Made by a program: the position numbers and the translations under genes. From assembly GCF_900564145.1 (NCBI RefSeq), contig NZ_UOOB01000001.1, positions 4,032,754 to 4,096,753 on the forward strand: a stretch of 64,000 nt of DNA, given 5' to 3'. This document shows, piece after piece, positions 5,916-28,303 of this stretch. The notes below the pieces were generated by a model. It was not told the DNA's origin and searched no databases. It saw nothing but the letters and a program-made list of their open reading frames with translations. Every line of letters starts with the position of its first letter. Positions within the stretch are counted from its first letter, which is position 1. Source of the stretch: Comamonas sp. lk. GTDB lineage: Bacteria; Pseudomonadota; Gammaproteobacteria; Burkholderiales; Burkholderiaceae_C.

Positions 5916-5928
5916 ACGGAGCAACCAA

Positions 5929-9998: not shown

Positions 9999-10053
9999 CA
10001 CCGCGATGATTGTCACGTAGCCACGGAGATAAAGGATCAAATCTCAACAAATC

Positions 10054-11801: not shown

Positions 11802-13085
11802 TCATGGTTGAGGGACATAACGGGCGCGCGGACGCCACAGGCCAGTCGCGCCGCGCTGCTCCTGTACGTGCGCCGCCCAGCCAGCCATGCGCGCCACTAA
11901 AAAGAGAACCGCAGCCGACCACACGGGCAGCCGAAGCCCGCGCACCAGACAGACAAGTCCGAACTCATGCCTGGGATGGTCTGCGAGGTTTTCCTGCGCC
12001 CAAGCGACGAAATCGAACACCTGTCTCATGTCGAAAGAGTCGTCAGCCAAGTCGGCGGCGATGGCAAGTAAGTGCCTCGCGCGCGGGTCGCCCCCCTTGT
12101 AGAGAGGATGCGTGAACCCCGGTATCTGCTGCCCGCTTTGGTGAAGGCGAATGGCCTTTTCACGCAACGCAACCGCCGTCGGTCTTGCCGTCAGAAAGCG
12201 GTCAACGATCGCATAGTGCCCGGCGATCTCGGTCCCGGAGCTAGCGCAGATGCCCGCGGAAATACAGTCGAACAGGTTTGCCCCACCCGATGCCGCGGCC
12301 CGAACAGCCAGGGTGCCTGGCGGCAGCTCATGGTCTGCAAGGAGCACCAGCAGCGCGTTCACCGCGCGGCTCCGCTCGAGCGTGGCCTCGCATCCGAAGG
12401 AGCGAATGAGCGTCGACGCGATCAGTTCCGAACGCTCCGGCAGCGTCAGCGCGTGTACGGGGCTGACACAGCCTAGCGCTTGCGCAATGGCAGAGATCAG
12501 CAGATGCGGCTCTTGCACCACGCCACCAACACGACCGCCGCTGCCCGACAGCTTGCGGGTACGTCCCAGCTCAAGGGCCAGCATTGCGATCGCCCCATAC
12601 ACTGTGTGCGGGTCGGTGCCGTGCAAAATCCGCAAGCCAGCTTCCCGAGCGCGAGCCAACTCCCGCGGAGGGATTATCCAAGCGCCAATTCTGGCAACGT
12701 CGAGCGGAGCGCCCCATAGCAACTCGCAAACGCGCTCGAATGGAACACCCTGGCGCGCGAGGTCACTAGCCAGATAGCCTCGGTATGCTGGGCCAGCCTC
12801 GGTGATTTCTGTTATTCCGCTGCTAATGATGGGCTGCCCATGGTCCATCGCGCCAGCTGCCGCAGCAGCATGGCCTGCACGGGCCGCCGCACGCGCAATG
12901 ACCCGCTCAACGTCCGCTCGGCTGTATAGGTGCGCTTTGGTCCCGGGCTGAGGCACACTACGAATTGCCCCTCTGCTCACATATGCGTAGAGCGTCTGTG
13001 GTCGAACGCCCAGGAGGGCAAGACTAGCCTTCGCATCAAGGAAGTCAGGGTGTCGAGAGGACGTGGAGTCAGAGCCTGTGATCAT
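11802..13085 (-). CDS. Helix-turn-helix/citrate-synthase-fold fusion, probable regulator
   Basis: A 427-residue protein. Residues about 15-65 form a MerR/excisionase-like winged helix (LLGVRPQTLYAYVSRG, then LYSRADVERV). The rest is a citrate-synthase fold recognisable by YRGYLASDL, the GFTHPLYKGGDPRA loop and ARMAGWAAHVQEQ. Of the three catalytic residues only the second His (GFTHPLY) is kept: the SGPLHGGA His position reads SGTEI, and the NVDFY Asp position reads HEFGL. It therefore probably senses a CoA ester or carboxylate instead of condensing acetyl-CoA. The start is the ATG at 13085; a TTG 33 nt upstream is less likely. A GCCATCTAATAATTTT motif sits about 80 nt upstream. A second fusion lies at 25385-26686. 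Confidence 0.75.
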   Translation of the reverse strand: MITGSDSTSSRHPDFLDAKASLALLGVRPQTLYAYVSRGAIRSVPQPGTKAHLYSRADVERVIARAAARAGHAAAAAGAMDHGQPIISSGITEITEAGPAYRGYLASDLARQGVPFERVCELLWGAPLDVARIGAWIIPPRELARAREAGLRILHGTDPHTVYGAIAMLALELGRTRKLSGSGGRVGGVVQEPHLLISAIAQALGCVSPVHALTLPERSELIASTLIRSFGCEATLERSRAVNALLVLLADHELPPGTLAVRAAASGGANLFDCISAGICASSGTEIAGHYAIVDRFLTARPTAVALREKAIRLHQSGQQIPGFTHPLYKGGDPRARHLLAIAADLADDSFDMRQVFDFVAWAQENLADHPRHEFGLVCLVRGLRLPVWSAAVLFLVARMAGWAAHVQEQRGATGLWRPRARYVPQP

Positions 13086-13163
13086 GGGGTCCCACGCAAT
13101 CCAGACCTGCAATGGCAAGGGATTCCATAAAGCGTGCCATATCTACATGGCTCATATTTATTA

Positions 13164-13179
13164 GCCATCTAATAATTTT
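13164..13179 (+). promoter_or_regulatory. GCCATCTAA-type operator-like motif
   Basis: GCCATCTAATAATTTT lies in the promoter of the helix-turn-helix/citrate-synthase gene, about 80 nt before its start. TATTAGCCATCTAATA around it is an imperfect palindrome. It matches the motif in front of the porin, of the hemerythrin/phthalate genes and at 27662-27680. Confidence 0.5.
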
Positions 13180-13324
13180 ACACGACAGATGGAATCTACC
13201 GCAGAGAGCGAGCTTAGCCAACTGCCGCATGGGACATGGCATTTAGCCTATCTACAAAGATTCTCAAAAGCGTCTTGCTCTATGCGGGTCAGCGCCTAGG
13301 CATGAGGGCTAGCGCCTCCACGGG

Positions 13325-13870
13325 TTAAGGCTTTGGGGAACCTTGGACAGCCGCTCTCCTCGTGTCATCTTGGATACACTCGTCATTCGCAAGATTCTCA
13401 ATAATCTTCAATAGCGAGCGCCGCACGATCCCGACATGCGCATCCGACAGAGACTTAACCGCCAGTGCGTTAACCTCCTCGGCCATAGGCACAAGCTTTG
13501 CCTTGAGGCGCTTGCCTGCAGGCGTAAGGAATACGTACATGCTTTTACGATTGTCGGGCCGGTGCCTTCGCACGACATATCCTAACTCTTCCATGGCTTT
13601 CAGTGCAATGGCCGTCGTGGGCGCCATCACTCCTGCCTCAACGCTCAGCTCCGCCTGGGTGAGTCCATCCCTTTCCCAGAGGATCCGCAGAAAAGTCCAA
13701 TGGCCGAGCTGAACATCGTAGCGCGCGAGACGATTCTGCAGTGACCGAAGAAATGCGCGCGTCGCGTCTTTAACCAAGTGAGCCAAGCGATCGTCAGGAA
13801 CGCCCTCATGCCAGTGCTGCAGGATTCGGCTCGCCATCTCTGCTGATTCTGTCCTTGCTTTCTTAGCCAA
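13325..13870 (-). CDS. MarR-family transcriptional regulator
   Basis: A 181-residue regulator with the MarR winged helix: YDVQLGHWTFLRILWERDGL, TQAELSVEAGVMAPTTAIAL as the recognition helix region, and the beta-wing VVRRHRPDNRKSMYVFLTPAG. The start is taken as the TTG at 13870 because GAGGG lies 7 nt upstream; the first in-frame ATG (13837) would cut the N-terminal helix. MarR proteins are dimers that usually bind 16-20 bp palindromes and let go on binding phenolic or carboxylic ligands. It sits between the helix-turn-helix/citrate-synthase gene and the LysR gene, all on the minus strand, and is a candidate for the TTAG/CTAA palindromes in this window. Confidence 0.88.
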   Translation of the reverse strand: MAKKARTESAEMASRILQHWHEGVPDDRLAHLVKDATRAFLRSLQNRLARYDVQLGHWTFLRILWERDGLTQAELSVEAGVMAPTTAIALKAMEELGYVVRRHRPDNRKSMYVFLTPAGKRLKAKLVPMAEEVNALAVKSLSDAHVGIVRRSLLKIIENLANDECIQDDTRRAAVQGSPKP

Positions 13871-14294
13871 TGTTCATCCCTCAATGCATACTAACAGACA
13901 CTTTGCCTGATTTATTCCCCGCAACACAGGCAACGAGCGACTACGTCTACACGAGCCGACAGGTACAAACAAGGGGGAGAAGAATGAAAAGGTACGAAAC
14001 CAGGCCAAGCGAGCTTAGCAAATATAGCACTCCGCATTCCTTAGTTCCGAACTCCACCACTGCAGAAACAGAACACGCAGCAATACGGCACCACTGGCAA
14101 AATTGAAAGTACACCTGAGCGGCAGTACCGTAAGCCGCCGACTGTAGGATAACCGCCCCAAAATGACATACAGCAGTCAGCAGGATCAGGCTACTCTGTA
14201 TCTTAAATCTCTGAGGAGGGCGTTTTGCAAGAACGTACAAGGTGCCCGCCAAGCGCAAGCCTTGTGCATTGCACCGGCACACATATGCCCTAGG
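13871..14294. other. Intergenic region between LysR and MarR genes
   Basis: This stretch of about 420 nt contains no gene I can support. A 111-codon minus-strand frame (13947-14282) is somewhat hydrophobic but has no RBS and no recognisable family. The MarR promoter should be in the part next to 13870. Confidence 0.4.
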
Positions 14295-15209
14295 CTAGCA
14301 CCGCCTTTGCAGAGTATCCCTCACTAGCGTACGCAGCCAACGATGCGCCGGATCCTGATGGTGGCGCCTGTGCCATATCTGAATTATTTCCACGCTCGGC
14401 GACGCGAACGGCAGCGGGATGGCCGTTATACCTTCCTTGCCGTCAAACGCACTGGCCAGATCCATCGGAATAATGGCTGTCAGCTCGGTTTGCGGAATGA
14501 TGGTCAACAGGCCAAGATAATGGGGAACCGTGGCCACCACATTCCGCTGCACGCCCATTGCAGCCATAGCCTTCTCAATGACCTCCTGGCTACGGCCTTC
14601 TGTTCTGACCGCAATGTGCTCCGCGGCTTGGAACGAAGCGATATCCATCTCGCCGCGCGCGGCGAGCTCCCTGTCGCCCGTGATGCACAGAAATCCGCTA
14701 TTGCGCAACAACCTCTGCTGAAAAACACCTCCACTAGTGATATCGGGAAAGTACCCAACGGCAAGATCGACACCTCCTGATTCCAGACCTACCTTGAGCT
14801 TTTCCACGATAGGGGACACCGTTCTCAGGCGAACACCTGGAGCCTGCTTGCGTACAGCATTGATCAGCAGCGGCAAATAGCAAGTTTCGCCGACATCTGT
14901 CATGCAGATCGTGAATATGCGCGAGGAAGTACGCAAGTCCAACGCCACCTTGGAAAAAATATGCTGGCGGGCGAGTTCGAGGGCTTGCCGGATCGGCTCA
15001 GCGACCTCCTGCGCCCTTAGCGTAGGCTGCATCTCGTTCTTAACACGCACGAACATTGGATCGTCGAAAGCCTTACGCATCTTCGACAGCGCGTGGCTCA
15101 TAGAAGGTTGACTCAGGTGCAATTGCTCGCCAGCCTTAGACACACTGCGGGTTTCCATGAGCGCTTCGAAGACAATTAGCAGATTCAAGTCCTCTTGAGA
15201 AGGCGTCAT
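14295..15209 (-). CDS. LysR-family transcriptional regulator
   Basis: A 304-residue LysR-type regulator of normal length. The N-terminal winged helix reads LNLLIVFEALMETRSVSKAGE then LHLSQPSMSHALSKMRKAF, followed by a substrate-binding domain (FTICMTDVGETCYLPLLI, GGVDLAVGYFPDI). The ATG at 15209 starts directly at the helix-turn-helix; the frame continues upstream but those residues are not LysR-like. It lies 265 nt downstream of the phthalate dihydrodiol dehydrogenase on the same strand, where a LysR activator of the phthalate operon would be expected, although it is not divergent from the operon. Pairing with phthalate or a pathway intermediate is an inference from position. Confidence 0.88.
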   Translation of the reverse strand: MTPSQEDLNLLIVFEALMETRSVSKAGEQLHLSQPSMSHALSKMRKAFDDPMFVRVKNEMQPTLRAQEVAEPIRQALELARQHIFSKVALDLRTSSRIFTICMTDVGETCYLPLLINAVRKQAPGVRLRTVSPIVEKLKVGLESGGVDLAVGYFPDITSGGVFQQRLLRNSGFLCITGDRELAARGEMDIASFQAAEHIAVRTEGRSQEVIEKAMAAMGVQRNVVATVPHYLGLLTIIPQTELTAIIPMDLASAFDGKEGITAIPLPFASPSVEIIQIWHRRHHQDPAHRWLRTLVRDTLQRRC

Positions 15210-15474
15210 TTTGTCCACGCTATGCAATAAGTCTATAGTTTGAAAAGTTGTTGGAGTTCCAGCCTTAGCCAAGCACCTTACATGCACTGCATCCGGAATC
15301 ATGCATGCGCATAAGGCCACTGCAAAATGAGGCCAGACACAAGGTACTGTCGTCAGACCAAAGGAGACTCTTATAACACTGACGTCTTGCTCGCCTGTGG
15401 CCATCGCAGAGGAGAGGCCACATAGGGTGGAGCTTCCGACCACTCTGTCCGCACCTTTCTCTTACGCAAGCACT

Positions 15475-16653
15475 TCAGCGCGGCAGTTCCACGTCTTTAC
15501 CCGAGCCGGCCGAGTCGAGCAACGCTAGACATACCTCAAGCGTAGCGCGCGCCCATTCGCCATCATGCAGCGGCTTGATCTCGTTAACCACAGCGTGGTA
15601 CAACTCATCAATAACCTCGAAACGGGGCACCACCGGCCGCTGCAACGACCGCCGCTCCTTGGCGAGGTCTGCGTACACGCAGACACTGTCCGGTAACGGG
15701 CGTATGTCTCCGCGCTCGCACGACACCACTATCGGGCCAAAATGTTGGTGCCAGATAGGCTGCGCATCCATTGCGGCAGCCACATATCCAGGACCTCCAT
15801 AGGTAGCAGCAGCCTTGAGGTTCGCCTCCTCCTGTGCTGAGCCCACGGTAGCCAGCTTGCGGCGGGCGGCGCCATATGCCTCAGGAGACTTGTCACCGCC
15901 CATCTCGCCAATCCAGTCGCACCACTCGTCGGAGTCGAAGTGCCCGTAGCCGTTATAGGAGATGCTGGCGAACGCGCCCCCCTCGAACCACAGCAGCGCC
16001 GAATAGGCACCCTGGGTAGGACGCATAGGATCCCAGTCACCCGTGATGGCTCGAACCCTCCTGACCCGAGTGCCAACCAGCAAGCGCACAATGTCGACTT
16101 GGTGAGCAGCCTGACTGAACACCACGCCACCGCCCTCTTCAGTGCGCAGTTCCTCGGGACGACGCGGTCGGTAGAGAAAGTCGGTGTAATTCAACGCGTG
16201 GACCATACGCACGGGCCCCAGCTCCCCGCTCTGCACGATCTCTCGAGCGCTCAGGTAGGGTGTGTCAAAGCTGTGACAATGACCGACGATCAGGTGTACC
16301 CCTGCATCACGGCAGTGCTGGATCATCTCGTCGCAGTCGCCAAGGGACAGCGCCATCGGTTTTTCCACAAGAACATGCTTGCCGTGACGTGCTGCAATGC
16401 GTGCCTGCTGCGCATGAAATTGGTGTGGGCTGGCGATATAGATAGCCTCTACATCCGGATTAGATGCCAGGCCTTCAATGTCCGGGTACACCGGAGCACG
16501 GAAGTCGCTCGCAAATTGAGCCCGCGCCGATTCGCGCGGATCGCAAGCAGCCACCAGCTTTATCCGCGGGTCCTGCTGGAGTGTCGGCAACATAAGCGTG
16601 AAGGCGCGCCCGAGTCCGGCGACACCCAGTCGAAGTTGGTGGCCGGCGTTCAC
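15475..16653 (-). CDS. ophB: Phthalate 4,5-cis-dihydrodiol dehydrogenase, Gfo/Idh/MocA family
   Basis: A 392-residue NAD-dependent oxidoreductase. The Rossmann motif is [14 protein letters not shown] near the N-terminus, and the family EKP motif appears in [20 protein letters not shown]. The C-terminal domain has [19 protein letters not shown]. The start is GTG at 16653, overlapping the reductase stop by four bases (GTGA), so translation is coupled. It would oxidise 4,5-dihydro-4,5-dihydroxyphthalate to 4,5-dihydroxyphthalate, the substrate of the decarboxylase in the same operon. The assignment rests on the family (known phthalate dihydrodiol dehydrogenases are Gfo/Idh/MocA proteins) and on the operon partners. 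It is the last gene of the five-gene operon. Confidence 0.82.
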
Positions 16654-17621
16654 AGGTCGATCACCAATTCGTCTGACTTAGCCCGAGAGACGCAGATCAT
16701 GATTTGCTTGTCCATCTCCTCGGGCAGCAATACCATGTCTCGATGATCAGCCTCGCCACTAAGTAGATTCGTGCGGCAGGTGCCGCAAGTACCGCTCTCG
16801 CAAGACGCCGCTGCATTACAGCCATGCTCACGAAGCACAGACAGAATCGACTTGCCGACTGGTACCTCAAACGCCGCGCCGGAGTTGGCCAGTTTTACCA
16901 TGAAAGGCTTGTCGTCTGGCCGCACTCCTCCGCCTTCGTTAAAGCTCTCGAAATGTACGTTGGTCGGCGACCAGTGCCCAGTCATGTCGCGCACAGCTTC
17001 CATCAGCGGGCGGGGGCCACAACAGTATACGTGGGCGGAATTAGGCTTTTCAAGCTCGGGCCACAGGTCGAAGACGCGCTCAGCGTCCCCGTGACTGTGG
17101 TGGATCCGCACTCGCCCCTTGAGTTCGGGGGCTCCAAGCTCTTCACGGAAGGCTGTGTTTTCGGGAAAGCGCGTCAGATAGATTAGCTTCCACGGCGCAG
17201 GCGGCAACTCACCGAACGAACGGATCATGGAAAGGATCGGCGTGATGCCAATACCCCCGGCGATAAAAAGGTAGCGCTTGGCGTTATCCACCAGCGGAAA
17301 TGCGTTGGAAGGAAGCGATGTAGGCAGCGTGTCGCCTTCCTGCAGTTGCTCATGCATTGAAAGTGAACCGCCCTGCCCTTCGGGGTCGCGCTTGACGGCA
17401 ATAACATAGCGCTTTCGCTCTGTCGGGTCATTGCAGAGCGAATATTTTCGCAGCATGCCGTTAGGGGCTTGCACCTTTACATGCGAGCCGGGAGTGAAGG
17501 GGGGTAGATCGCTGCCATCGTCATGCACCAACTCAAAGCTGCGGATATCCAGCGCCAAGTCGATGATGCGAGACACCCTCAACGGCATCTGCGTATCGGA
17601 GTGAGTATGCGTAGAAGACAT
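16650..17621 (-). CDS. ophA1: Phthalate 4,5-dioxygenase reductase component
   Basis: A 323-residue class IA dioxygenase reductase with domains in the order FMN-NAD-[2Fe-2S]. The flavin site is RKYSLCND, the NAD-binding site is [16 protein letters not shown] and [11 protein letters not shown], and the C-terminal plant-type ferredoxin domain shows [20 protein letters not shown] plus the distal Cys in MICVSRA. It passes electrons from NADH to the Rieske oxygenase encoded upstream in the operon. AGAGAG lies upstream of the ATG at 17621. The Bug gene ends 13 nt upstream, and the dehydrogenase overlaps downstream. The same architecture occurs in vanillate and related demethylase reductases, so the substrate comes from the neighbours. 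Confidence 0.85.
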
Positions 17622-17634
17622 TGTGAAATCTCTC

Positions 17635-18612
17635 TTATTCGGCCTTGAGTTGGGCCCGCTTAGCCGCGTCTGTCACCTGCGTCTTCTCGGCACGTAGTGC
17701 CTGCCTCAATTGCTCCACCGAGCCGCCTACTGGGTCAACACCGGCAGTGCGAAGCTGTTCAATGACTTCGGGCATCTTCACAATCTTGTCAATCTCGGCA
17801 TTTATGCGGCTAACCACTGCTTCAGGTGTATCCTTCTTTCCTAGAACCGCAACCGTAAAGGCAAAGTCAAAGCCAGGAATCTTTTCGGCCAGCGCTGGCA
17901 TTTGCGGCACTAGAAGGGACCGCGCTGAGGAATTAGTGGCCAGAAGCCGAGCTTGACCTGATTTGACAAACCCCATGAGCGATGGTGGCGAAGCGAAAAC
18001 CATGTCAACCTGCCCCCCGATCATCGCAGGCACCGAGTTGGCGCTTCCCTTAAAAGGGACGTGTGTCATCGTGAGGCCTAAGCTAGCATTCATGGCCTCT
18101 GCCGTGAGGTGGTGGATGCTGCCTGTGCCTGCTGAGCCATAGTTAAGCTCTCCCGGCTTGGCCTTCGCCAGCGCGATGAGTTCCTCCAGCGTCTTCGCCT
18201 TAACCTTCGCATTGACAGCAAGGAACAGCGGAGCCTTGCCGACGAGCGAAATCGGGACAAAATCGCGACCAGCGTCGTAGCTAATCTTCTTTGTTAGCAG
18301 CGGCGTAATCGACAGCATTGGTCCATCGGTCACCAGCAGCGTGTAACCATCTGCCGGCGCCTGCAGTATCGCTGATGCCGCCACCGCGCCACCGGCGCCG
18401 GGCCGATTATCGACGTAGACCGGCTGCCCCAAAACATCGCCCAAAGGGCGAGAGAGGATACGAGCCACTGTGTCAGGAAGACCACCCGCAGAATAGGGAA
18501 CTATCAACTTGATAGCGCGGGTCGGGTAGTTTTGAGCGTACGCGTTGGAGCTAAATGCAAAGGGAGCCAGAAAGGCCATCCCAAGCAACTTGATTAGGGT
18601 TTTGCGTCTCAT
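17635..18612 (-). CDS. Bug/TctC-family binding protein in the phthalate operon
   Basis: A 325-residue Bug receptor with a signal peptide (MRRKTLIKLLGMAFLAPFA, ending SNAYAQ) and YPTRAIKLIVPYSAGGLPD, VDNRPGAGGAVAASAILQ and LNYGSAGTGSIHHLTAEAM. The ATG at 18612 was chosen (GGAG 8 nt upstream); a GTG 15 nt earlier is less likely. It lies inside the phthalate operon between the decarboxylase and the reductase, so it likely captures phthalate or a close relative in the periplasm. No permease gene is in this operon. It is analogous in position and role to tphC for terephthalate, which needs membrane subunits encoded elsewhere. Confidence 0.88.
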   Translation of the reverse strand: MRRKTLIKLLGMAFLAPFAFSSNAYAQNYPTRAIKLIVPYSAGGLPDTVARILSRPLGDVLGQPVYVDNRPGAGGAVAASAILQAPADGYTLLVTDGPMLSITPLLTKKISYDAGRDFVPISLVGKAPLFLAVNAKVKAKTLEELIALAKAKPGELNYGSAGTGSIHHLTAEAMNASLGLTMTHVPFKGSANSVPAMIGGQVDMVFASPPSLMGFVKSGQARLLATNSSARSLLVPQMPALAEKIPGFDFAFTVAVLGKKDTPEAVVSRINAEIDKIVKMPEVIEQLRTAGVDPVGGSVEQLRQALRAEKTQVTDAAKRAQLKAE

Positions 18613-18643
18613 GGGGCTTGTCTCCACTTATGTTCTTTTGGAT

Positions 18644-19633
18644 TTAGATGCTGTAGCTCTCATAGGTTGCGGGATGGAACAGCTCACTAACTGGAACCAG
18701 TCTGGATGACAGGCCTTGCTCGTAGTGACTACGAACGAAGGTCTCCAGGGTCCTACTTGCCGGCGCCACACCATAGGACCAGAAATCCTCACCCATAGCC
18801 ACGCGTGCAGCGTGCAGTTGCTCTTCAACGAATGGAAGCGTGACCTTGGTGGCCGAGGTATCGGAAAGAAGCTCCAAAGCCACAGCCTTGGACTGGGTGA
18901 AAGCCTTCACAATCGCAGCTGCCAGCCAAGGGTGCTTGGCCGCCAGATCTTTTTTAATTGCCGCCACATGCATGATCGGAAAGACGCCTGTACGACGGTA
19001 ATAGTCCTTGGCTACCGCAGTCGGATCGTCGAAGAGCCAGCCAATATTTGGGTTGGCCAGCGCTGCCCGACTGGGTGGACGGGGGGCCATAAAAGCGTCG
19101 ATCTCTCCTGAATCGAGCATTTGCGAAATCGTTGCCCCCTCGGGAGCCTGTTCAATACGGATATCAGCTGGAAGCTGCAGTTTGACTTTCTCAGGGCGAC
19201 CGGGCGTCTCAATGCCTCCGCGTACCCAGGTCACATCGGAGGGACTGACTCCGAAATCGTCTTGCAAGACCGCTCGTGCCCATACATTAGCGGTAAGTTG
19301 ATACTCAGGTACACCAATGCGCTTGCCCTTCAGGTCAGAAGGCTCCCTAATACGGTCCTTGCGGACGTAGATTGATGTGTGCCGAAAAGCCCGCGACAGA
19401 AAGACCGGCAGCGCGATATAGGGACACTCACCGCGCGAGTGTTTCACCAAGTAGCTGGAGAAAGAAAGCTCGGTGACGTCGAAGTCAATGCTACGCATCG
19501 CTCGGAAGAACATCTCCTCGGGATTGAGGAGCATATACACTGGGTCGACGCCATCTATTTGCACACGGCCATCGAACAATGCTCGAGTACGGTCGTAGTC
19601 GCCCATCGCGACGGAAAGTTGGAGTTTACTCAT
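18644..19633 (-). CDS. ophC: 4,5-dihydroxyphthalate decarboxylase
   Basis: A 329-residue protein of the family that includes Pht5/OphC, with a periplasmic-binding-protein-like fold but no signal peptide. Recognisable segments are LSVAMGDYDRTRALFDG at the N-terminus, FDVTELSFSSYLVKHSRGE, DLKGKRIGVPEYQLTANVWA and FMAPRPPSRAALANPNIGW. It would convert 4,5-dihydroxyphthalate to protocatechuate. It starts 4 nt after the oxygenase stop, so the two are translationally linked. Its presence argues for ortho-phthalate over isophthalate as substrate, because isophthalate operons of Comamonas lack a separate decarboxylase. Confidence 0.85.
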   Translation of the reverse strand: MSKLQLSVAMGDYDRTRALFDGRVQIDGVDPVYMLLNPEEMFFRAMRSIDFDVTELSFSSYLVKHSRGECPYIALPVFLSRAFRHTSIYVRKDRIREPSDLKGKRIGVPEYQLTANVWARAVLQDDFGVSPSDVTWVRGGIETPGRPEKVKLQLPADIRIEQAPEGATISQMLDSGEIDAFMAPRPPSRAALANPNIGWLFDDPTAVAKDYYRRTGVFPIMHVAAIKKDLAAKHPWLAAAIVKAFTQSKAVALELLSDTSATKVTLPFVEEQLHAARVAMGEDFWSYGVAPASRTLETFVRSHYEQGLSSRLVPVSELFHPATYESYSI

Positions 19634-19637
19634 GGGA

Positions 19638-20957
19638 TCAGGACTTCACGGAATAGGAGGGTTCGAACTCGGGGCGATCCTGGCCATCCAGCCAGACATA
19701 GTGAGCGTCGTATGTGCGCCAGTCGGTCGTCTTTGGGACGATGGCTTGGAAGGAACAGACTGTTGGCGTCGCCGCTTCGACCCCCGTCCCGATGGCAGGT
19801 GCCCCTTGCTCGAAGGCCTTCACCGCGTCGAGCATCTGCTTGCGAAATTCCACGATAGCCAGATCGCTTGCGCCCAGGCGGTCATGGGTACGGTCGGCGA
19901 TGGGCCCCATAGTCAGCCACATCGCGACATCTTGGTTAGGGAAACCAGTGATGCCAGTGAAGTTACCGGCCTTCATAGCGTTACGGTCCTGCCAGAATTT
20001 GTTTGCTTCATTGCGCAAGGGACGGTAGTTTTGATCCAGGTCGACCCCCACCGTCTGACGCAAAAACTTGCGCCAGGTTTCAGTCTCCGGCGTTTGCGAC
20101 GGATGGCCCCACGCGATGAAATAGAACGCCGTGTTTGTGTCATCCATCGGCACGTTGATGTTGGCCACGTTATAGAGGTTGTTTGGCGGGATCAGCGCAG
20201 TAGCCGGGGCCACGAAAACCGTGGAGCGCACGTAATCGTTCTCCGCAGCATTCGAGAGCGGCCGGCGCAACGCGGCATAGCGAAAACCGTAACCGGTACG
20301 CTGCACCTGCATGCGCGGAGCCTTGTCGGTCGAGGGACGCAACCAAGTCTTGTCGGTAGCCTTCGCGCCATCGACCCGAGCCGGCACCATATCTGAAGAA
20401 TGGAGACTGGAGCTATGGGCTGAGTCGATAGCGCCTTCGAGAATCTGCGCCCAGTTGCACGGCAGTAGCACCTTCGCGATGCTCACCCGCGTGTCGGCCG
20501 TCGGCGCCCATGCCGGCGGCAGGAATTCAGGCATGGTTTCCTTCGGTCCCATGTAAGCCCACACCATACCGGCCCACTCTTGGGTCGGATACGCGGTGTG
20601 CTTAACCTTGTCAACCATGCCGCTGGCTGCTGGCTCGGACGCCATCTCCAGCACGTTGCCATCGACATCCATCTTCCAGCCGTGGTAGAGGCAGCGCAGA
20701 CCTCCCTCCTCGTTGCGACCGTACACCAACGAGGCTCGGCGGTGAGGGCAATACTCGTCCATGACACCGACGCGGCCCTCACTGTCGCGAAAGACCACCA
20801 GATCCTCGCCGAACGCACGCGCTTTCACTGGCGTTCCGTCAGGCTCGCCCACCTCCTCCACTAGGCAGATGGGCGTCCAATGCCGACGCATGAGACGCCC
20901 CATCGGTGCGTCTCCTTCAACGCGACAAAGCAGTTCGTTTTCTTCGTGGGTCATCAT
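19638..20957 (-). CDS. ophA2: Phthalate 4,5-dioxygenase, Rieske oxygenase component
   Basis: A 439-residue Rieske non-haem iron oxygenase of the phthalate dioxygenase type (alpha subunit only). The Rieske [2Fe-2S] ligands are in CPHRRASLVYGRNEEGG then LRCLYHGWKMD, and the mononuclear iron site is in EGAIDSAHSSSLHSSD. It adds O2 across carbons 4 and 5 of phthalate using electrons from the reductase in the same operon. There are two adjacent ATGs (20957 and 20954) with GGAGAG about 9 nt upstream; either may be used. The bacteriohemerythrin gene begins just upstream on the same strand and may share the promoter. Confidence 0.87.
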   Translation of the reverse strand: MMTHEENELLCRVEGDAPMGRLMRRHWTPICLVEEVGEPDGTPVKARAFGEDLVVFRDSEGRVGVMDEYCPHRRASLVYGRNEEGGLRCLYHGWKMDVDGNVLEMASEPAASGMVDKVKHTAYPTQEWAGMVWAYMGPKETMPEFLPPAWAPTADTRVSIAKVLLPCNWAQILEGAIDSAHSSSLHSSDMVPARVDGAKATDKTWLRPSTDKAPRMQVQRTGYGFRYAALRRPLSNAAENDYVRSTVFVAPATALIPPNNLYNVANINVPMDDTNTAFYFIAWGHPSQTPETETWRKFLRQTVGVDLDQNYRPLRNEANKFWQDRNAMKAGNFTGITGFPNQDVAMWLTMGPIADRTHDRLGASDLAIVEFRKQMLDAVKAFEQGAPAIGTGVEAATPTVCSFQAIVPKTTDWRTYDAHYVWLDGQDRPEFEPSYSVKS

Positions 20958-20993
20958 GATGTGTTCTCTCCAGGAGTGATTAAAGGTATCGAA

Positions 20994-21482
20994 CTAGGTC
21001 GCCAAGGCAGTCTCAGATTGGCGCCCCTTGCGCAGCACTATCGGTTTAGCGCCGTGCTGCAGCTTGCAAAGCCAATGAGAAAGGGCCGAGTCGAGGTGCT
21101 GAACATGGGCTGGAAACCAAGCAGCCAACTCGTCCGCCAACCGATATGCAACGCTGACTTCGCCGGTGCAATCCATACGCCGGAGCACACCTCGAAGCGT
21201 TGAAAGCACGGCATCGTGCTCACGAATGTGACAGTCGCGTGGAGGAAATTGCGTAGCGAGCATCAACTCATTCTCAGCCTCAAAGTGCGATGTCGCATGC
21301 GTAAGCACTGCTTCAAGCGTTTGCGCCATATCGGAAGCGCTGGCACGCTGCATGCGTTCGATTAGCCAAGCGAGCCGCTCGTGCTCATCATCGACTGCCG
21401 CGAGTCCTAGCAATAGCGCCTCTGACCAGAGCGGCGGTGATGACTCAATAGGCATCTGAATAGTCAAAGCAGACATCGACAT
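20994..21482 (-). CDS. Bacteriohemerythrin-like O2-binding protein
   Basis: A 162-residue single-domain hemerythrin. The di-iron ligands are visible in order: LAAVDDEHERLAWLI, HATSHFEAENELM, DCHIREHDAVL and HVQHLDSALSHW. Such proteins bind O2 reversibly at a non-haem di-iron centre. The gene precedes the phthalate dioxygenase genes by 36 nt on the same strand, so it is probably the first gene of that operon; O2 delivery or buffering for the oxygenase is an attractive but unproven role. The start is uncertain: ATGs at 21482, 21476 and 21455 all lack a strong RBS. The TTAG/CTAA motif at 21506-21521 lies immediately upstream. Confidence 0.8.
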   Translation of the reverse strand: MSMSALTIQMPIESSPPLWSEALLLGLAAVDDEHERLAWLIERMQRASASDMAQTLEAVLTHATSHFEAENELMLATQFPPRDCHIREHDAVLSTLRGVLRRMDCTGEVSVAYRLADELAAWFPAHVQHLDSALSHWLCKLQHGAKPIVLRKGRQSETALAT

Positions 21483-21505
21483 ACACAGCCGGCAATTTTT
21501 TATTA

Positions 21506-21600
21506 GACACCTAACAATTCTAACAATGCAAGCTCGTCTCGGCAATGAATTTCACCCCGGGGTTTCCCTAAAATTATTTGTCAACTAACAATTAGTCATT
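21506..21600. promoter_or_regulatory. Promoter of the hemerythrin/phthalate genes with two TTAG/CTAA motifs
   Basis: GACACCTAACAATTCT at 21506-21521 is preceded by TTA, giving TTAGACACCTAA. CAACTAACAATTAGTC lies at 21582-21597 and includes the inverted element CTAACAATTAG. Both resemble the motif in front of the porin and the first helix-turn-helix/citrate-synthase gene. They are placed to control transcription of the minus-strand operon. Confidence 0.5.
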
Positions 21601-21639
21601 CCGCCTTTACACGGAACTACGGGACTCAATCAATGACGG

Positions 21640-22480
21640 CGCAAAAAGATGGCTGGCTGCGAATCGCCAAGCGGTTATTTGCAGATTTGAGCCGGGACAC
21701 CGAAGCGACGTTGGCGATGCCGCTGTGCGGCCGTGGCAGTTGTAGTGGTGCTGCCAGTTCGCCAGGGCACGAGCCACTCAGCAGAGTTCTGGTACGTCAG
21801 GCCATAGGCCCACTCACTTAGCTCTGACTGGATGGACCGCTCGGCCTCGCCATTGGTCTATGGCCGGTGCGATCTGATGAGCTTTTGCCGCACGTCCAAA
21901 GCCTCGCAGGCAGCCGCAAACACCTTCCACCGGAAAGCTGCACTGCTGTCAGTCAGCAGGCATTTGATGCACGCGTGGTCAACGATCGCCACAAACAATG
22001 TCTCCCGGCCTGTACCCTCGACCGAGTCTCGCCGGCCGCCAGTCACTTGATGGGTGGGTCTGACGATGCTCCAGAGCATCCTGGTGTCGATGTGCAGCAT
22101 GTCACCAGAATCCTTGTCCTCGCAGCGCATAACGGACTCGGCAGGCCCCTGAGGCGAGAGAGGCCAGCACGGCCCCATGTGCGCGCAAACCTAGCACAGA
22201 GCAACGCAAGGTGGCAAGAACCACGGAGATGTACTTCCAAAGTGCCATTGCGCGATAGATCCGGCGGGTGCACGAGATGAGACAGTGGGATACCTTCCTG
22301 CCGGCAGCCCACCTGCAAAGCAGGCGTGCAGGATTGGTACGTCAAGCGCTGAAAGTACCGGGCCGAGAACACCAGCTTCAATGAGTTCACGAACAGCCTG
22401 AGTACGATGGTCAAGGCCCAGGTGCGCGTCGGGTAGCGCGGTGTTGCACGCAGGAGGCCAGGCCATGGTCTCCTACGGCC
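21640..22480 (-). pseudogene. Degenerate IS481-family transposase
   Basis: The minus strand carries recognisable pieces of an IS481 transposase. The frame ending at 21858 has GDMLHIDTRMLWSIVRPTHQ then VTGGRRDSVEG, the characteristic segment around the first catalytic Asp. Further on, past an in-frame stop, the sequence reads TNGEAERSIQSELSEWAYG, the catalytic Glu region. The N-terminal part (about 22200-22480) is scrambled. Several stops and frameshifts make it inactive. No terminal repeats or target duplication could be defined, so the limits given are approximate. Confidence 0.75.
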
Positions 22481-22558
22481 CGGCGCGCCCACAGGGGACA
22501 CCAAGCCATGTGGTCGTGCCCGGCTCAGTCCTCGCTTAGAAGACGGCCAGCCTGGAGG

Positions 22559-23761
22559 TCAGAGCTTATCGAGGCGCACCGAGCGGTCGGCGAGCATATC
22601 TGCCGACGGGCACGCGCCCTGCTTGAGCCAACGCTTGGCCACCTTGATGTCCCGCGGTGCATTCACCGAGATCACGCTGCGCAGTCGGCCATCCGAGATC
22701 TGGAACATGGAGAACGCGCCCTCCTCTGCAGACCCGCGCAGGGTGCCCTCCAGGTCGTTGGACGGAGTGCCGAGGACCTGCAAATTCAGGTTGTACTGGT
22801 CGGACCAGAACCACGGGATCTCGTCATATGCCCCGTTCCCGCCGGCGATCGCCTTGCCCACGGCGATCGCCTGGTTCTGGGCGTTGGCCCACGACTCGAA
22901 GCGCAGACGGCAGCCCGCCCAGGAATTGGGCTGATTCGCCACGTCGCCGGCCGCATAGATGTCGGGGTCGGAGGTCCGACCGGACTGGTCTACGACAATG
23001 CCGTCCCGGACCTCGAGCCCACAGGCTTCGGCCAAGCTGGTGTCCAGGACCAGCCCGATCCCGACCACGACCGCATCGAACTCCTGCGACTCGCCGGGCA
23101 GTTGCACGGCCAGAGCGCGCTGGAGTCCCACAGAAAACGATGTGATTGTTGTCGACAGGCGGACCTCGACGCCCTCCTGGCGGTGCTTTTCGAGCAGGAA
23201 CTCCGAGAATCGGGGGGGAAGCGACCGCGCGCACAGGCGCGGCCCGGCCTCCAGCAGCATAACGTTGACCTGCTTCTTCCTCGCCGTTGCCGCGATCTCC
23301 AGCCCGATCCATCCGCCCCCGATGACCAGCAGCCGGTTGCCGGGAACCAGGTGCCTGGCGATGGCCCGGGAATCCTCGATCGTGCGCAGGGCATGGACGC
23401 TGGGCAGGTCCGCGCCGGGACACGACAGCTGCCGAGGGCGCCCGCCGGTGGCCAGCACGAGCTTGTCGTAGTGGACCAGCGAGCCATCCGCGCACCGGAC
23501 CAGGTGGCCGGCGCGGTCGATGCCGACGGCCTCGACGCCAGGCCGGAAGTCCACGCGCAGCGCCTCGCACTGCTGTGCGGTGAGAAGCACGGGAGGGTGC
23601 TCCTGCGCTCCGCTGAGTACCCCCTTGGACAGCGGGGGGCGCTCGTACGGCGCATGCGGCTCGCGGCCCAGAAGGAGGATCCCTCCCTCATGCCCTCCCT
23701 CGCGCAGCGACCGGGCAACCCAAGCGCCGGCCTGGCCGGCTCCTATGATGACGACATCCAT
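22559..23761 (-). CDS. FAD-dependent ferredoxin reductase of a Rieske oxygenase system
   Basis: A 400-residue pyridine-nucleotide-disulphide-type oxidoreductase. It has the FAD GxGxxA motif (VVIIGAGQAGAWVARSL), the NAD-binding motif (LLVIGGGWIGLEIAATA), PYERPPLSKGVL and the second FAD motif DPDIYAAGDVANQ. It resembles the BphA4/ThcD type of ferredoxin reductase, which transfers electrons from NADH to a Rieske ferredoxin; the ferredoxin gene ends about 20 nt upstream. The ATG at 23761 (GGGA 8 nt upstream) was preferred over one 18 nt earlier. Together with the next two genes it makes a three-component oxygenase without a beta subunit. Confidence 0.87.
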   Translation of the reverse strand: MDVVIIGAGQAGAWVARSLREGGHEGGILLLGREPHAPYERPPLSKGVLSGAQEHPPVLLTAQQCEALRVDFRPGVEAVGIDRAGHLVRCADGSLVHYDKLVLATGGRPRQLSCPGADLPSVHALRTIEDSRAIARHLVPGNRLLVIGGGWIGLEIAATARKKQVNVMLLEAGPRLCARSLPPRFSEFLLEKHRQEGVEVRLSTTITSFSVGLQRALAVQLPGESQEFDAVVVGIGLVLDTSLAEACGLEVRDGIVVDQSGRTSDPDIYAAGDVANQPNSWAGCRLRFESWANAQNQAIAVGKAIAGGNGAYDEIPWFWSDQYNLNLQVLGTPSNDLEGTLRGSAEEGAFSMFQISDGRLRSVISVNAPRDIKVAKRWLKQGACPSADMLADRSVRLDKL

Positions 23762-23782
23762 GACTGTTTCCCGTTGCATCGC

Positions 23783-24103
23783 TCAGTGGACCGGCCGCAG
23801 GAAGATCACCCCCTGCTCGACCTTGACCGGATAGCAGTGCAGCGGCACGGTGCATGGGGCGCCCACCGCACGGCCACTCCTGATGTCGAACGTACCCTCG
23901 TGCAGCGGACACTCGATGAGACAGGAGTCAACCACCATGCCCAGCGACAGGTCCGCGTCTCCGTGCGTGCACGTGCCGTCCGTGGCGAAGATGTCCCCGC
24001 CGAGGTTGTAAAGGCACACTCGCTTGCCGTCGAACTCCACCGAATGCGTGTCGTCTTCGTCGATATCGGAGACGTTGCCGACCTTGATCCATTCATCTTC
24101 CAT
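23783..24103 (-). CDS. Rieske-type [2Fe-2S] ferredoxin component
   Basis: A 106-residue soluble Rieske ferredoxin. The cluster ligands lie in CTHGDADLSLGMVVD and CPLHEGTFDIRSG (CxH and CxxH). It would shuttle electrons from the flavoprotein reductase downstream to the oxygenase alpha subunit upstream. The ATG at 24103 with GGGAG 5 nt upstream was chosen; another ATG 12 nt earlier, also with an AGGA-like run, is possible. It sits about 25 nt after the alpha-subunit stop in an operon. Confidence 0.88.
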   Translation of the reverse strand: MEDEWIKVGNVSDIDEDDTHSVEFDGKRVCLYNLGGDIFATDGTCTHGDADLSLGMVVDSCLIECPLHEGTFDIRSGRAVGAPCTVPLHCYPVKVEQGVIFLRPVH

Positions 24104-24128
24104 AATGACTCCCATTTGTTCCTGTGCC

Positions 24129-25274
24129 TTACGCCGCCTCGGACGTCATCACGTCGATGTAGTGATTCTCCATGTGGTACAGAGCCTCCTCCAGCGGAGA
24201 CATCGGACCGGGCTTGAAGAACTCCGAACCTGCGCTGTTCTGCATGCCCTCCACCATCACGGCATCCTCGGCGATGATTTGGCGCACGAAGCCGACATAT
24301 TTCTCCATCTCCTCGTCGTAGTTCGGGATCGAGAAGGCGCCTTCGGGGAACAGCAGGTAGCAGATGACCCGGGTCTCGGTGGGGGAGATCGGCCAGATGT
24401 GCCACATGCGAACGCTGTCGGCGCGCATCGACAGGTTCAGGTTGGGATAGATACCCGCCTTGCAGGCAATGCCACTGGGCTTGTCCTGCGCCCAGGGCAG
24501 GGTCGGGAAGACCTGATCACCGGACGTCGAGTGGGGCCGGGCCTCGTACTGGGTATGCCATCCGCCGTTTCCCAGGAGATTGAAGCGCACCTGCTCGCCC
24601 TTGACGAAGCCGCCGAAGGTTCCCTTGTGGATGACGCCGACGTGGTAGATGTCGATCAAGTTCTCGACCAGGAATTTCCAATTGCACTTGACGTCGATCT
24701 CGACCTTCTGGGCAAGCCTGCAATGGTCGGTCTGGAACCACCACAGCGGCTGCTCGAACGGTGCGATGTAGTCCTCGAAGGACATCGGCTCATCGCTGAA
24801 GTTCACGAAAATCCAGCCGCGCCAGACCTTGACGTGCAACTGCCGCAGGCTGCAGTTCTTCAGTTCAACCTCCGAGGCCTTCATGCCGGGTGCGACAACC
24901 AGCTTGCCGCTCACGTCATACAGCCACGCGTGGTAGGGGCAGCTGAATTCCTTCGCATTGCCGCGGCCGACGGCGATCTCCACGCCCCGGTGCAGGCACT
25001 GGTTCATGTAGGCCACGACCTGATCGGGCGCCGGACGGGACACAACGATCGATTCCTTCATCACCTGGAAGGTGTAGTAGTCGCCAACATTGGGGATCTC
25101 TTCGACGCGCCCCACAGAAAGCCAGTACTTCATAAAGATCTGCTGCTTTTCCATGTCGTAGATCTCGGGCGAGCTGTACACCTCGCCCGGCAGGTGACGT
25201 GCACTGAGCAATTTCTTGCGAGTTTCCTTGAACTTGGGGCGCAGGTCCAGGAGCTGTTGTTCGGCTACTTGCAT
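24129..25274 (-). CDS. Rieske oxygenase alpha subunit of unknown substrate
   Basis: A 381-residue aromatic-ring-hydroxylating oxygenase large subunit. Rieske ligands: CLHRGVEIAVGRGNAKEF then SCPYHAWLYD. The mononuclear iron ligands are in ENLIDIYHVGVIHKGTFG (Asp-x2-His-x4-His), and the third ligand is probably an acidic residue in the C-terminal third. It is the first gene of an operon with the ferredoxin and ferredoxin reductase; no beta subunit gene is present, so a homomeric alpha oxygenase is expected. The start at 25274 has AAGGA 8 nt upstream. It diverges from the second helix-turn-helix/citrate-synthase gene, the likely regulator. The substrate is unknown; benzoate-, anthranilate- or salicylate-like compounds are possible. 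Confidence 0.85.
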   Translation of the reverse strand: MQVAEQQLLDLRPKFKETRKKLLSARHLPGEVYSSPEIYDMEKQQIFMKYWLSVGRVEEIPNVGDYYTFQVMKESIVVSRPAPDQVVAYMNQCLHRGVEIAVGRGNAKEFSCPYHAWLYDVSGKLVVAPGMKASEVELKNCSLRQLHVKVWRGWIFVNFSDEPMSFEDYIAPFEQPLWWFQTDHCRLAQKVEIDVKCNWKFLVENLIDIYHVGVIHKGTFGGFVKGEQVRFNLLGNGGWHTQYEARPHSTSGDQVFPTLPWAQDKPSGIACKAGIYPNLNLSMRADSVRMWHIWPISPTETRVICYLLFPEGAFSIPNYDEEMEKYVGFVRQIIAEDAVMVEGMQNSAGSEFFKPGPMSPLEEALYHMENHYIDVMTSEAA

Positions 25275-25325
25275 CGTGGTCATCCTTTCAGAAATGCGTT
25301 GATCGTGCGCAGCGGATACTAGACA

Positions 25326-25365
25326 ATACATTGATTAATGTATAGATCGATATGAGAATCGATAT
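25326..25365. promoter_or_regulatory. Divergent promoter with palindromic operator candidates
   Basis: Between the Rieske alpha gene and the helix-turn-helix/citrate-synthase gene lie ATACATTGATTAATGTAT (25326-25343, perfect 7-bp arms around GATT) and a direct repeat of ATCGATAT (25346-25353 and 25358-25365). The position, within 110 nt of both starts, suits a regulator controlling both genes. The helix-turn-helix fusion is the natural candidate. Confidence 0.55.
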
Positions 25366-25384
25366 ATTCTATCGGGAGAACCCT

Positions 25385-26686
25385 ATGCCCTTGAATAATC
25401 CCTCTGAGAGCGCACGTCCTCAGCGCCAGATCAACGACGTCGACTACGTCGGCAGCGCCGAAGCCATGTCGATCCTGGGCGTGCGGCGCGAAACGCTGTA
25501 CACCTACGTCAGCCGCGGACTCATCAAGACGATGCAGCGCCCGGGCGTGAAGGCCAAGCTATACCGCAAGGCCGATGTCGAAAAACTCAGGAGCCGGGCC
25601 GTTGCCCGCTCGGGCGGGCCCCAGGTCGCACACTCCCTTCGCTATGGCGAGCCGATCGCGCAGACATGGATCAGCGAGATCACCGCCCACGGCCCGCGCT
25701 ACCGGGGGGTGCTCGCGCGCGACCTGGTGCGCGACGGCCGGTCGTTCGAATTCGCCAGCGAGCTCATCTGGACGGGACTGCCGCGCACACGGGACATCGC
25801 ATGGCCCCCCCTGCAGGACACCCGCCAAGCGGAATCCCTGGTCAATCTGGCCTTGCATTCGGCAGAGCACGTCACGCCGCTCAAGCTCCTGTCGATGCTG
25901 ACGACCTCGCTGTCGGCATTCGAGCGGGCCGAGGACGACATGCAGACGGCCGGCTTCGCAGCCTGCCGGAGGCTGTTGCAGACGCTGGCCGGCACCGCGG
26001 GCGTCTTCGGTCCCAGGGCTCAGTTTTCAGCGCCCCGAGACGGAGAGTTCATGGCGCAGTGCGTAGCCCGCGGGCTGGGCCTGGGCGACAGGCCCGATGC
26101 TGTGCGGGCCATCGATGCAGCGCTTGTGATGTCCGCCGAGCACGAACTGTCGGCCCCGACGTTCGCCACGCGGATCTGCGCCTCGACGGGAGCGGATCTG
26201 CATGCCTGCGTCGCGGCCGCGATGCTGACCCAGTCGGGGTCGATGCAGGTCGGGGGGGCCGTCGAGGTGGAGGCGCTCATCGATGCCCTGCCCTTCGGAC
26301 TGGAACCGGAAGACGCCCTGCCGCTGGCGGCGGCCTCGGGCTTCAAGAGCAACGAACTGCCCTGCTTCGGACACCCTCTGTACGACGGCGAGGATCCGCG
26401 CTCGGCAGTGCTCCTCGACTTCATCGGACGCCTGGACACGCATGGACCGGACACGCCGAGGGTACAGGCACTGGTGGCCGGTGCACGGCAGGCAGGGCAG
26501 CATCCGAACGTGTTCGCCGCCCTCGTGATCCTGTGCAAGGCGATCGGTCTACCCAACGGAAGTGGCGCGATGCTCCACACCTTGGCGCGCACCAGCGGCT
26601 GGATCGCCCATGCGATGGAGCAGCGCCTGACCGGGGCCATGCTGCGCCCGAGGGCCAAATACATGGGTCAACACCACCCTCGGTGA
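25385..26686 (+). CDS. Helix-turn-helix/citrate-synthase-fold fusion, probable regulator of the divergent oxygenase
   Basis: A 433-residue paralogue of the fusion at 11802-13085. Residues about 20-75 are a MerR/excisionase-like helix-turn-helix (SILGVRRETLYTYVSRGLI, then LYRKADVEKL). The rest has citrate-synthase landmarks YRGVLARDL, CFGHPLYDGEDPRS and ARTSGWIAHAMEQ, with the final RPRAKYMG. As in the first copy, the catalytic His of the SGPLHGGA motif is replaced (SGSMQVGGA), and the catalytic Asp of NVDFY is Phe (NVFAALV). Only the second His remains, so citrate formation is unlikely. The ATG at 25385 has GGGAGAA 4 nt upstream. It is divergent from the three-component Rieske oxygenase. Confidence 0.78.
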   Translation: MPLNNPSESARPQRQINDVDYVGSAEAMSILGVRRETLYTYVSRGLIKTMQRPGVKAKLYRKADVEKLRSRAVARSGGPQVAHSLRYGEPIAQTWISEITAHGPRYRGVLARDLVRDGRSFEFASELIWTGLPRTRDIAWPPLQDTRQAESLVNLALHSAEHVTPLKLLSMLTTSLSAFERAEDDMQTAGFAACRRLLQTLAGTAGVFGPRAQFSAPRDGEFMAQCVARGLGLGDRPDAVRAIDAALVMSAEHELSAPTFATRICASTGADLHACVAAAMLTQSGSMQVGGAVEVEALIDALPFGLEPEDALPLAAASGFKSNELPCFGHPLYDGEDPRSAVLLDFIGRLDTHGPDTPRVQALVAGARQAGQHPNVFAALVILCKAIGLPNGSGAMLHTLARTSGWIAHAMEQRLTGAMLRPRAKYMGQHHPR

Positions 26687-28286: not shown

Positions 28287-28303
28287 ACCACCTCGACTGC
28301 GAC

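Follow-up and report, generated by a model that had tools for sequence, protein, structure and literature searches.

We report that two genes of Comamonas sp. lk, P0001 and P0002, each encoding a helix-turn-helix (HTH) domain followed by a citrate synthase domain devoid of its catalytic residues, belong to a family of HTH-citrate synthase fusions that are best explained as one-component transcription factors, with a predicted operator, predicted targets and a putative carboxylate switch; we give this reading a probability of roughly 0.85. Both genes lie in a stretch of 64,000 nucleotides (contig NZ_UOOB01000001.1, positions 4,032,754 to 4,096,753), hereafter the window, where their products probably switch genes for the degradation of aromatic acids. 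We base the regulatory role on the conserved operator, its validation on held-out genes, the covariation of recognition helix and operator base, the divergent gene order and the presence of phthalate-type gene clusters. The initial annotation had proposed DNA-binding regulators of aromatic catabolism, and as a prediction this proposal now has strong computed support. The two genes and their domains are listed below, with active-site residues numbered throughout as in pig citrate synthase.

25385 to 26686, plus strand: P0001, HTH-pseudo-citrate synthase of 433 amino acids (open reading frame, Pfam and alignment)
25454 to 25588, plus strand: HTH_17-like domain of P0001, residues 24-68, with the recognition helix ETLYTYVSRG of the Thr type
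25652 to 26653, plus strand: citrate synthase domain of P0001, H274 replaced by Q and D375 by F (Pfam and alignment)
11802 to 13085, minus strand: P0002, HTH-pseudo-citrate synthase of 427 amino acids, H274 replaced by I and D375 by E, recognition helix of the Ala type (open reading frame)

We took 25385 as the start of P0001; an alternative in-frame ATG at 25352 would put the predicted operator within the gene. The coding frame of 11802-13085 is on the minus strand, and the plus-strand reading is interrupted by stops. The Pfam family Citrate_synt (PF00285, cut-off 27 bits) matched P0001 with 150.4 bits (E 9e-44, model positions 6-357 of 357) and P0002 with 134.2 bits (E 8e-39, positions 5-357), which bears out the earlier claim of an N-terminal HTH joined to a full citrate synthase domain in both proteins. 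The head had been described as MerR/excisionase-like. HTH_17 (PF12728, gathering score 27) matched it better than the MerR models, with 27.0 bits for P0001 (E 5e-6), level with the gathering score, and 24.7 bits for P0002 (E 3e-5), short of it; MerR_1 scored 16.9 and 13.1 bits, both under its cut-off of 21.6. At E values up to 1, Pfam returned solely HTH and Citrate_synt families for the two proteins, and no shikimate-kinase-like domain. Their best scores against the curated citrate synthase models of NCBIfam lay below the cut-offs (122.5 against 332 bits for P0001, 98.7 against 421.3 for P0002). On Pfam and alignment, the predicted fold of both is that of citrate synthase.

In citrate synthase, His238, His274, His320, Arg329, Asp375, Arg401 and Arg421 have roles at the active site, and the three arginines bind the carboxylates of oxaloacetate. 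We aligned P0001 and P0002 with GltA and PrpC, which are also encoded in the same genome, and observed that Gln (P0001) and Ile (P0002) stand in place of the catalytic His274, as had been claimed for the first catalytic His. The alternative that the catalytic His and Asp were simply displaced was checked in this alignment; the flanking motifs align unshifted, and the residues are truly replaced. The claim that the catalytic Asp had given way to Phe or to an unrelated residue was correct for P0001, where Asp375 is Phe; P0002 has Glu at this position, not an unrelated residue. His238, His320, Arg329, Arg401 and Arg421 are retained in both proteins, in agreement with the reported retention of the middle His and the terminal Arg. 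The ratio of non-synonymous to synonymous substitution rates (dN/dS) ranged from 0.13 to 0.21 for the set of P0001 and two orthologs, while P0002 and its Acidovorax ortholog gave 0.10; these low values indicate purifying selection, and therefore the two genes are not decaying.

Relatives were collected by a discovery scan with degenerate seeds over one genome per species, from which the best 80 of at least 588 relatives were kept, and further loci came from plasmids and from 100 genomes belonging to the same family; owing to this choice of seeds and relatives, the shares of lost and kept members in the discovery set are not population shares. Two quick trees were built, the first without the two trait columns and the enlarged one with them, and three partial or stop-bearing loci (L013, L017 and L062) were left out. 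Among the 91 fusions of the first tree, 39 are without both catalytic residues (two of these rows, L009 and L036, are identical), 51 have both and 1 is intermediate. The 39 degenerate rows form a single clade (Shimodaira-Hasegawa-like approximate likelihood-ratio support 99), nested among catalytically complete members. With six further rows, all of them lost, the enlarged tree placed the loss label as one change with a support of 100. All degenerate members having a named family or genus are from Burkholderiales. The complete members span Rhizobiales, Caulobacter, Burkholderiales, Myxococcota, a Ktedonobacter (Chloroflexota) and a Verrucomicrobiota. In the held-out sets, 7 of the 15 Burkholderiales genes had lost both residues, 7 had kept both and one (L161) had lost His274 alone; all 27 genes from beyond Burkholderiales, representing 13 genera, had both. 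Of 299 genomes sampled from the phylum, 33 contained full-length matches, the Comamonas genome included. Since the same operator also accompanies complete HTH-citrate synthases, and these are the more widespread kind, the loss of catalysis looks, from these sequence comparisons, like a later step within one order and not a defining trait of the class.

We also noted two proteins outside the degenerate group with altered active sites: L161 (G211:C23) has His274 replaced by Glu and His238 by Asn, and L076 (Bradyrhizobium sp. NAS80.1) has Asp375 replaced by His and His320 by Gln, with His274 kept. They are perhaps independent steps toward pseudoenzymes. Two Burkholderiales genomes, G056 and G199, carry four HTH-citrate synthase paralogs each, one of the G056 copies having an internal stop.

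For operator discovery we counted all five-base dyads with spacers of 0-20 in 90 non-redundant upstream regions (40 of lost and 50 of kept members; 5 of 95 regions were removed as redundant), an exhaustive count being chosen because it avoids tuning of the pattern. TTGAT-N7-ATCAA was found in 30 and ATCAA-N2-TTGAT in 24 of the 90 regions; in 30 dinucleotide shuffles the highest count for any dyad was 4. At least one of six dyads chosen from the discovery list was present in 65 of the 90 regions. In the controls the corresponding figures were 5 of 79 for downstream regions, 4 of 710 for regions upstream of the other genes of these loci and 1 of 119 for the remaining divergent regions. We combined the dyads into a predicted operator, RTCAA-N2-TYGAT-N6/7-RTCRA, scored out of 15. 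A score of at least 13 was reached by 29 of the 40 lost and 42 of the 50 kept members in the discovery regions and, in the held-out sets, by 12 of the 15 Burkholderiales genes and 26 of the 27 genes of the phylum set, compared with 14 of 709 control regions upstream of other genes. L128 (a copy of L033) and G257 (already in the order set) were excluded from the held-out sets; phylum-set matches lacking a locus (G536, G546 and the second copy of the Comamonas genome itself) were dropped, and L115, L117 and L118, which carried no annotation, were left out. The operator adjoins HTH-citrate synthase genes of Pseudomonadota, of the Ktedonobacter and of the Verrucomicrobiota. We consider it very probable, on this sequence evidence, that HTH-citrate synthases bind DNA at this operator. 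The spacing of exact 15-position sites (discovery and order sets) was 7 in 31 and 6 in 4 complete members, and 7 in 5 and 6 in 13 degenerate members.

The operator base also varied with the protein. The residue following TLY in the recognition helix was Ala or Ser in the rows with TTGAT (36) and Thr in the rows with TCGAT (10), so that all 46 scored rows, those with an exact site of one type, agreed and none was discordant. The tree places two independent changes of the helix residue, both in step with the operator base. Fisher's test gave 2.5e-10 for the association, a value that ignores relatedness. L010 (both site types), L112 (Thr helix, with one half-site of each kind) and the rows without an exact site were dropped from this table. 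Four rows, L110, L083, L100 and L102, escaped the helix pattern and were concordant with the rule when read by eye; among the held-out genes, L140 (Ser) has a mixed site, and L131 and L160 carry Cys.

These observations bear on the possibility that a different regulator binds the repeats, or that they are a general promoter element, and that they merely adjoin the fusion genes. The operators are located by position only, and regulators of the MarR, LysR or IclR families are encoded close by in the window and in the annotated plasmids, as such an explanation would have it. However, any of the six dyads turned up in just one of the other divergent regions of the same loci, the repeat adjoins the fusion genes in Pseudomonadota, the Ktedonobacter and the Verrucomicrobiota, and the half-site base follows the HTH residue of the fusion protein. 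We therefore regard this explanation as very improbable.

We next compared the gene order around the fusions, using simple custom gene calls and neighbour clusters, with Pfam run on one representative of each larger cluster. The upstream neighbour is transcribed divergently for 27 of 30 members of the degenerate group and for 43 of 46 of the complete group; for other genes the figure is 240 of 725. Among 47 complete loci, 25 (L057, L058, L065, L067, L077 and L080 among them) have a canonical citrate synthase gene in this divergent position, and 7 further ones have a class III CoA-transferase there. The arrangement suggests that, in loci of the complete group, citrate synthase expression is controlled by a citrate synthase relative. 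It also brings to mind a heteromer, in which P0001 and P0002 would serve a second citrate synthase as inactive partner subunits, with the HTH as a leftover: the pairing with a citrate synthase gene exists in the family, and the Comamonas genome has both gltA and prpC. Nevertheless, a canonical citrate synthase gene is nearby in only 1 of 35 lost-clade loci, and the HTH and the operator are conserved jointly and vary jointly, which makes a heteromer of this kind hardly credible.

The degenerate loci (n = 35) have other neighbours: TctC proteins in 18, aldehyde dehydrogenases in 13, thiamine pyrophosphate (TPP)-dependent enzymes in 9, Rieske oxygenases in 8 and a 4,5-dihydroxyphthalate decarboxylase-like protein in 10, the best match to the window gene being 84%. 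A Rieske or aromatic-dicarboxylate (phthalate-type) module is present in 21 of these 35 loci versus none of the 47 complete ones, and most catabolic genes of the window belong to the same neighbour clusters. Such surroundings, together with the Glu found at the Asp375 position in 26 of the 39 lost proteins, would also be compatible with enzymes of altered chemistry, for example a lyase or a condensing enzyme of an aromatic pathway, whose HTH serves autoregulation. Against this, the Asp375 position is Ala in 10 of the 39 and Phe in P0001, the His274 position has no common replacement (T in 12, L in 10, V in 8, I in 6, Q in 2, or other), and the genes are mostly transcribed away from the adjacent operon instead of lying inside it. 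We thus consider an altered enzyme unlikely, and return to transcription factors as the preferred reading for the two loci of the window.

The P0001 locus contains the following features.

25344 to 25365: predicted P0001 operator AGATCGAT-N6-ATCGATAT, one mismatch to a perfect repeat, between the Rieske gene and P0001
25327 to 25342: second inverted repeat TACATT-GATT-AATGTA in the same promoter
24129 to 25331, minus strand: Rieske ring-hydroxylating oxygenase, divergent from P0001 (alternative starts 25283 or 25274)
23783 to 24115, minus strand: Rieske-type ferredoxin of the same operon, named by its Acidovorax equivalent
22559 to 23779, minus strand: ferredoxin reductase of the Rieske operon, dependent on flavin adenine dinucleotide and 84% identical to its Acidovorax equivalent

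The gene order confirmed that P0001 is divergent from a Rieske oxygenase operon, and the region 25326-25365, proposed earlier for binding, encloses the predicted operator. A perfect 8-6-8 inverted repeat, AGATCGAT-N6-ATCGATCT, is found in Acidovorax carolinensis (L109) and Paraburkholderia fungorum (L110), whose proteins are 87% and 48% identical to P0001, respectively; the L006 counterpart has two mismatches. The second repeat is perfect in the window and in L006 and altered in L109 and L110. Judging the target from the position of the site, 25344-25365 most likely serves P0001 in the control of its own gene and of the divergent Rieske operon.

The P0002 locus comprises the phthalate operon and a distant site.

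19638 to 20957, minus strand: phthalate-dioxygenase-type Rieske protein (matches 7fjl/7v25/7v28 over all 439 residues, 1038 bits)
18644 to 19633, minus strand: 4,5-dihydroxyphthalate decarboxylase (9jp7, E 1.6e-172)
17635 to 18627, minus strand: TctC solute-binding protein (best solved match the periplasmic terephthalate-binding protein 8hka, E 1.2e-49)
16650 to 17621, minus strand: PDR-type reductase
15475 to 16653, minus strand: Gfo/Idh/MocA oxidoreductase of the phthalate operon
14295 to 15443, minus strand: LysR-family regulator
13325 to 13870, minus strand: MarR-family regulator adjoining P0002
7734 to 9236, plus strand: aldehyde dehydrogenase
5851 to 7737, plus strand: TPP-dependent enzyme, true start probably downstream
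4926 to 5915, plus strand: TctC-type gene, the first after the 4515 site (29 TctC-cluster members matched, best 54% identity)
4515 to 4532: putative P0002 operator ATTGAT-N6-ATCAAT, between a porin gene and the TctC-TPP-aldehyde dehydrogenase operon

The chains 7fjl/7v25/7v28 are of the phthalate dioxygenase of Comamonas testosteroni KF1. P0002 is the last gene of the phthalate operon, after the MarR and LysR genes, so that its reported place beside these regulators of the phthalate cluster is correct by gene order. We assigned the 4515-4532 site to P0002 because an Ala-type helix goes with TTGAT, and from the position of this site P0002 most likely controls the porin and the TctC-TPP-aldehyde dehydrogenase operons. 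In the Acidovorax plasmid pACP3.2 the arms of the site are conserved and the spacer is changed; there the equivalent of the TctC-type gene is annotated TctC. Two insertion sequence (IS) copies with matching translations, at 9250-10040 and 27900-28690, flank the catabolic island, and the former sits between the TPP-aldehyde dehydrogenase genes and P0002.

The Comamonas genome was further scanned for exact matches to ATYGAT-N6/7-ATCRAT only. Of the ten matches obtained, four are in ribosomal RNA (rRNA) operons and four inside long open frames; the remaining two are in promoters, and both of these fall in the window, at 25346-25363 and 4515-4532. The four rRNA-operon copies are identical, three being recognised by Rfam and the fourth (1549293) by the same sequence and spacing. 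These eight matches outside promoters were treated as chance or unrelated. The 16S-23S spacer (L119, L120 and L122 at 1501-1519) holds ATTGATCAATCTGATCAAT, which fits the short operator pattern; the match to ATTGATCAATCTGATCAAT is probably chance, though it could titrate the regulator.

On pACP3.2, orthologs of P0001 and P0002 flank a protocatechuate 4,5-cleavage gene set consisting of ligK, ligA, an extradiol beta subunit, two amidohydrolases and a Gfo/Idh gene; LigK- and LigA-type genes are also present in the Comamonas genome. A third citrate synthase-like region of this Acidovorax carolinensis plasmid (L114:13976-15198), annotated as two overlapping pieces, is probably a broken copy. Elsewhere in the window, 45371-53448 holds a type I restriction-modification-like set, as judged by translations, with a transposase-like open reading frame (51468-52460) between two modification-subunit pieces.

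We propose that a citrate synthase homodimer carrying two N-terminal HTH heads would bind the inverted repeat RTCAA-N2-TYGAT-N6/7-ATCRA in the promoter common to the fusion gene and its divergent neighbour. In most of the sampled lineages the synthase domain has its full set of catalytic residues. One Burkholderiales clade lost His274 and Asp375 once and retained the three carboxylate-binding arginines, with the operator spacing mostly 6 instead of 7 and the genes placed beside phthalate-type and related carboxylate catabolic operons. The ligand of its emptied active site would most likely be a di- or tricarboxylate from the pathway, and as the dimer moves from open to closed, the distance between the DNA-binding heads may change. 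According to PMC4524684, the citrate synthase homodimer closes when oxaloacetate is bound.

The conservation within the degenerate clade is relevant to what its citrate synthase domain does. R329 and R401 are present in 39 of 39 proteins, R421 in 38, H238 in 32 and H320 in 29, and the other pocket residues that changed include the Asn following the DHE motif and the Phe four positions before R401. The domain might be a dimerisation scaffold only, with no effector bound; that both catalytic residues and several pocket positions are changed, and that H320 is gone in 10 of the 39, would fit. The retention of the arginines, invariant or nearly so, goes beyond what structure alone needs, and a pure scaffold appears rather unlikely. 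We somewhat favour the view that the degenerate domain senses a carboxylate. The CoA ester or oxaloacetate named as ligand in the initial annotation may be right, given the retained arginines, though other positions of the pocket have changed. A ring-cleavage tricarboxylate as the ligand is a tentative suggestion. Equally speculative is the broader picture in which citrate synthase turned into a widespread transcription-factor family, whose complete members would read their own substrate or product while regulating genes for citrate synthase and CoA-transferase, and whose degenerate Burkholderiales members would read a citrate-like pathway carboxylate, for example 4-carboxy-4-hydroxy-2-oxoadipate from phthalate or protocatechuate breakdown. 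A LigK-type aldolase converts this compound to pyruvate and oxaloacetate.

Several observations weigh against the transcription-factor reading or parts of it. The operator match is weaker in the lost clade, where 4 of 7 held-out members, besides the 29 of 40 in the discovery set, reach 13. In a sister group consisting mostly of Myxococcota, an exact TTGAT/TCGAT palindrome was found in 2 of 15 rows, one of them ambiguous. The covariation consists of two independent changes and falls short of significance once kinship is counted, and among the rows without an exact site the counts for, against and tied were 21, 5 and 10 for Ala, 2, 0 and 1 for Ser, and 3, 1 and 2 for Thr. An operator sought directly upstream of P0002 was not found, and P0002 is not divergent from its neighbour. 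The 4515-4532 site scores only 12 of 15 on the long operator pattern and lies ∼7 kb past the 3' end of P0002, 8.5 kb from its start, with IS remnants between. Finally, H320 and H238 are incompletely kept in the degenerate proteins, and hence the ligand may differ by subclade or be absent.

Regulators with a sensor derived from an enzyme fold include MocR/GabR, ROK and DeoR/SorC. Their enzyme folds differ from that of HTH-citrate synthases, and to our knowledge none of them uses citrate synthase. Trigger enzymes of the PutA type combine enzyme activity with DNA binding. The same combination could be present in HTH-citrate synthases that are catalytically complete; here, though, the head is HTH_17-like and sits on citrate synthase, and P0001 and P0002 are not expected to be active. 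They resemble GltA, PrpC and Mycobacterium tuberculosis CitA (PF00285) in having the same domain over the whole Pfam model with the arginines kept, and differ from citrate and 2-methylcitrate synthases by the N-terminal DNA-binding domain, the conserved operator and, in this clade, the absence of His274 and Asp375. With MerR/HTH_17 regulators they share a similar helix-turn-helix, the C-terminal part being citrate synthase instead of a MerR effector domain.

The closest parallel is BzdR/BoxR, in which an HTH is joined to an enzyme fold that lost its activity, and BzdR likewise controls aromatic degradation. In PMC3602430, BzdR is an HTH-XRE domain joined to a shikimate-kinase-like domain sensing benzoyl-CoA; a bifunctional enzyme-HTH chimera was also made there, of which the catalytically inactive version reportedly responded in vivo and the active one did not. 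BoxR has the same make-up and also occurs in PMC6449761. Both the HTH family and the enzyme fold differ from those of HTH-citrate synthases. Moreover, the working-enzyme fusion of the BzdR study was a synthetic chimera, whereas the apparently complete fusions described here, with the same predicted operator, are natural.

Two candidate precedents were discarded. The PDB chains of M. tuberculosis CitA have 373-380 residues and match the synthase part only; for the citrate synthase-like SCO5831 of Streptomyces, the excerpts of PMC9739823 and PMC7324645 state no DNA-binding role. The main text of the comparative study of aromatic regulators in Betaproteobacteria (PMC6449761) does not mention citrate synthase, and among the matches listed in the open-licence full-text literature there was no description of an HTH-citrate synthase regulator. 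Enzyme-derived one-component regulators are known as a kind, and the fusions would belong among them.

Citrate synthase is the entry enzyme of the tricarboxylic acid cycle, and here it is a candidate sensor of a transcription factor. In the 30 plasmid records listed, the gene, where annotated, is named citrate synthase, citrate synthase family protein or citrate/2-methylcitrate synthase, and therefore regulators may be filed as metabolic enzymes in annotation. As the natural family includes members of both states, complete and degenerate, that share the operator, the idea that an enzyme became a regulator by gaining an HTH and then losing its activity, examined for BzdR with synthetic chimeras (PMC3602430), can be put to the test in natural proteins. 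With the operator and the residue-base rule, regulons would become predictable from sequence, those of phthalate and terephthalate degraders among them.

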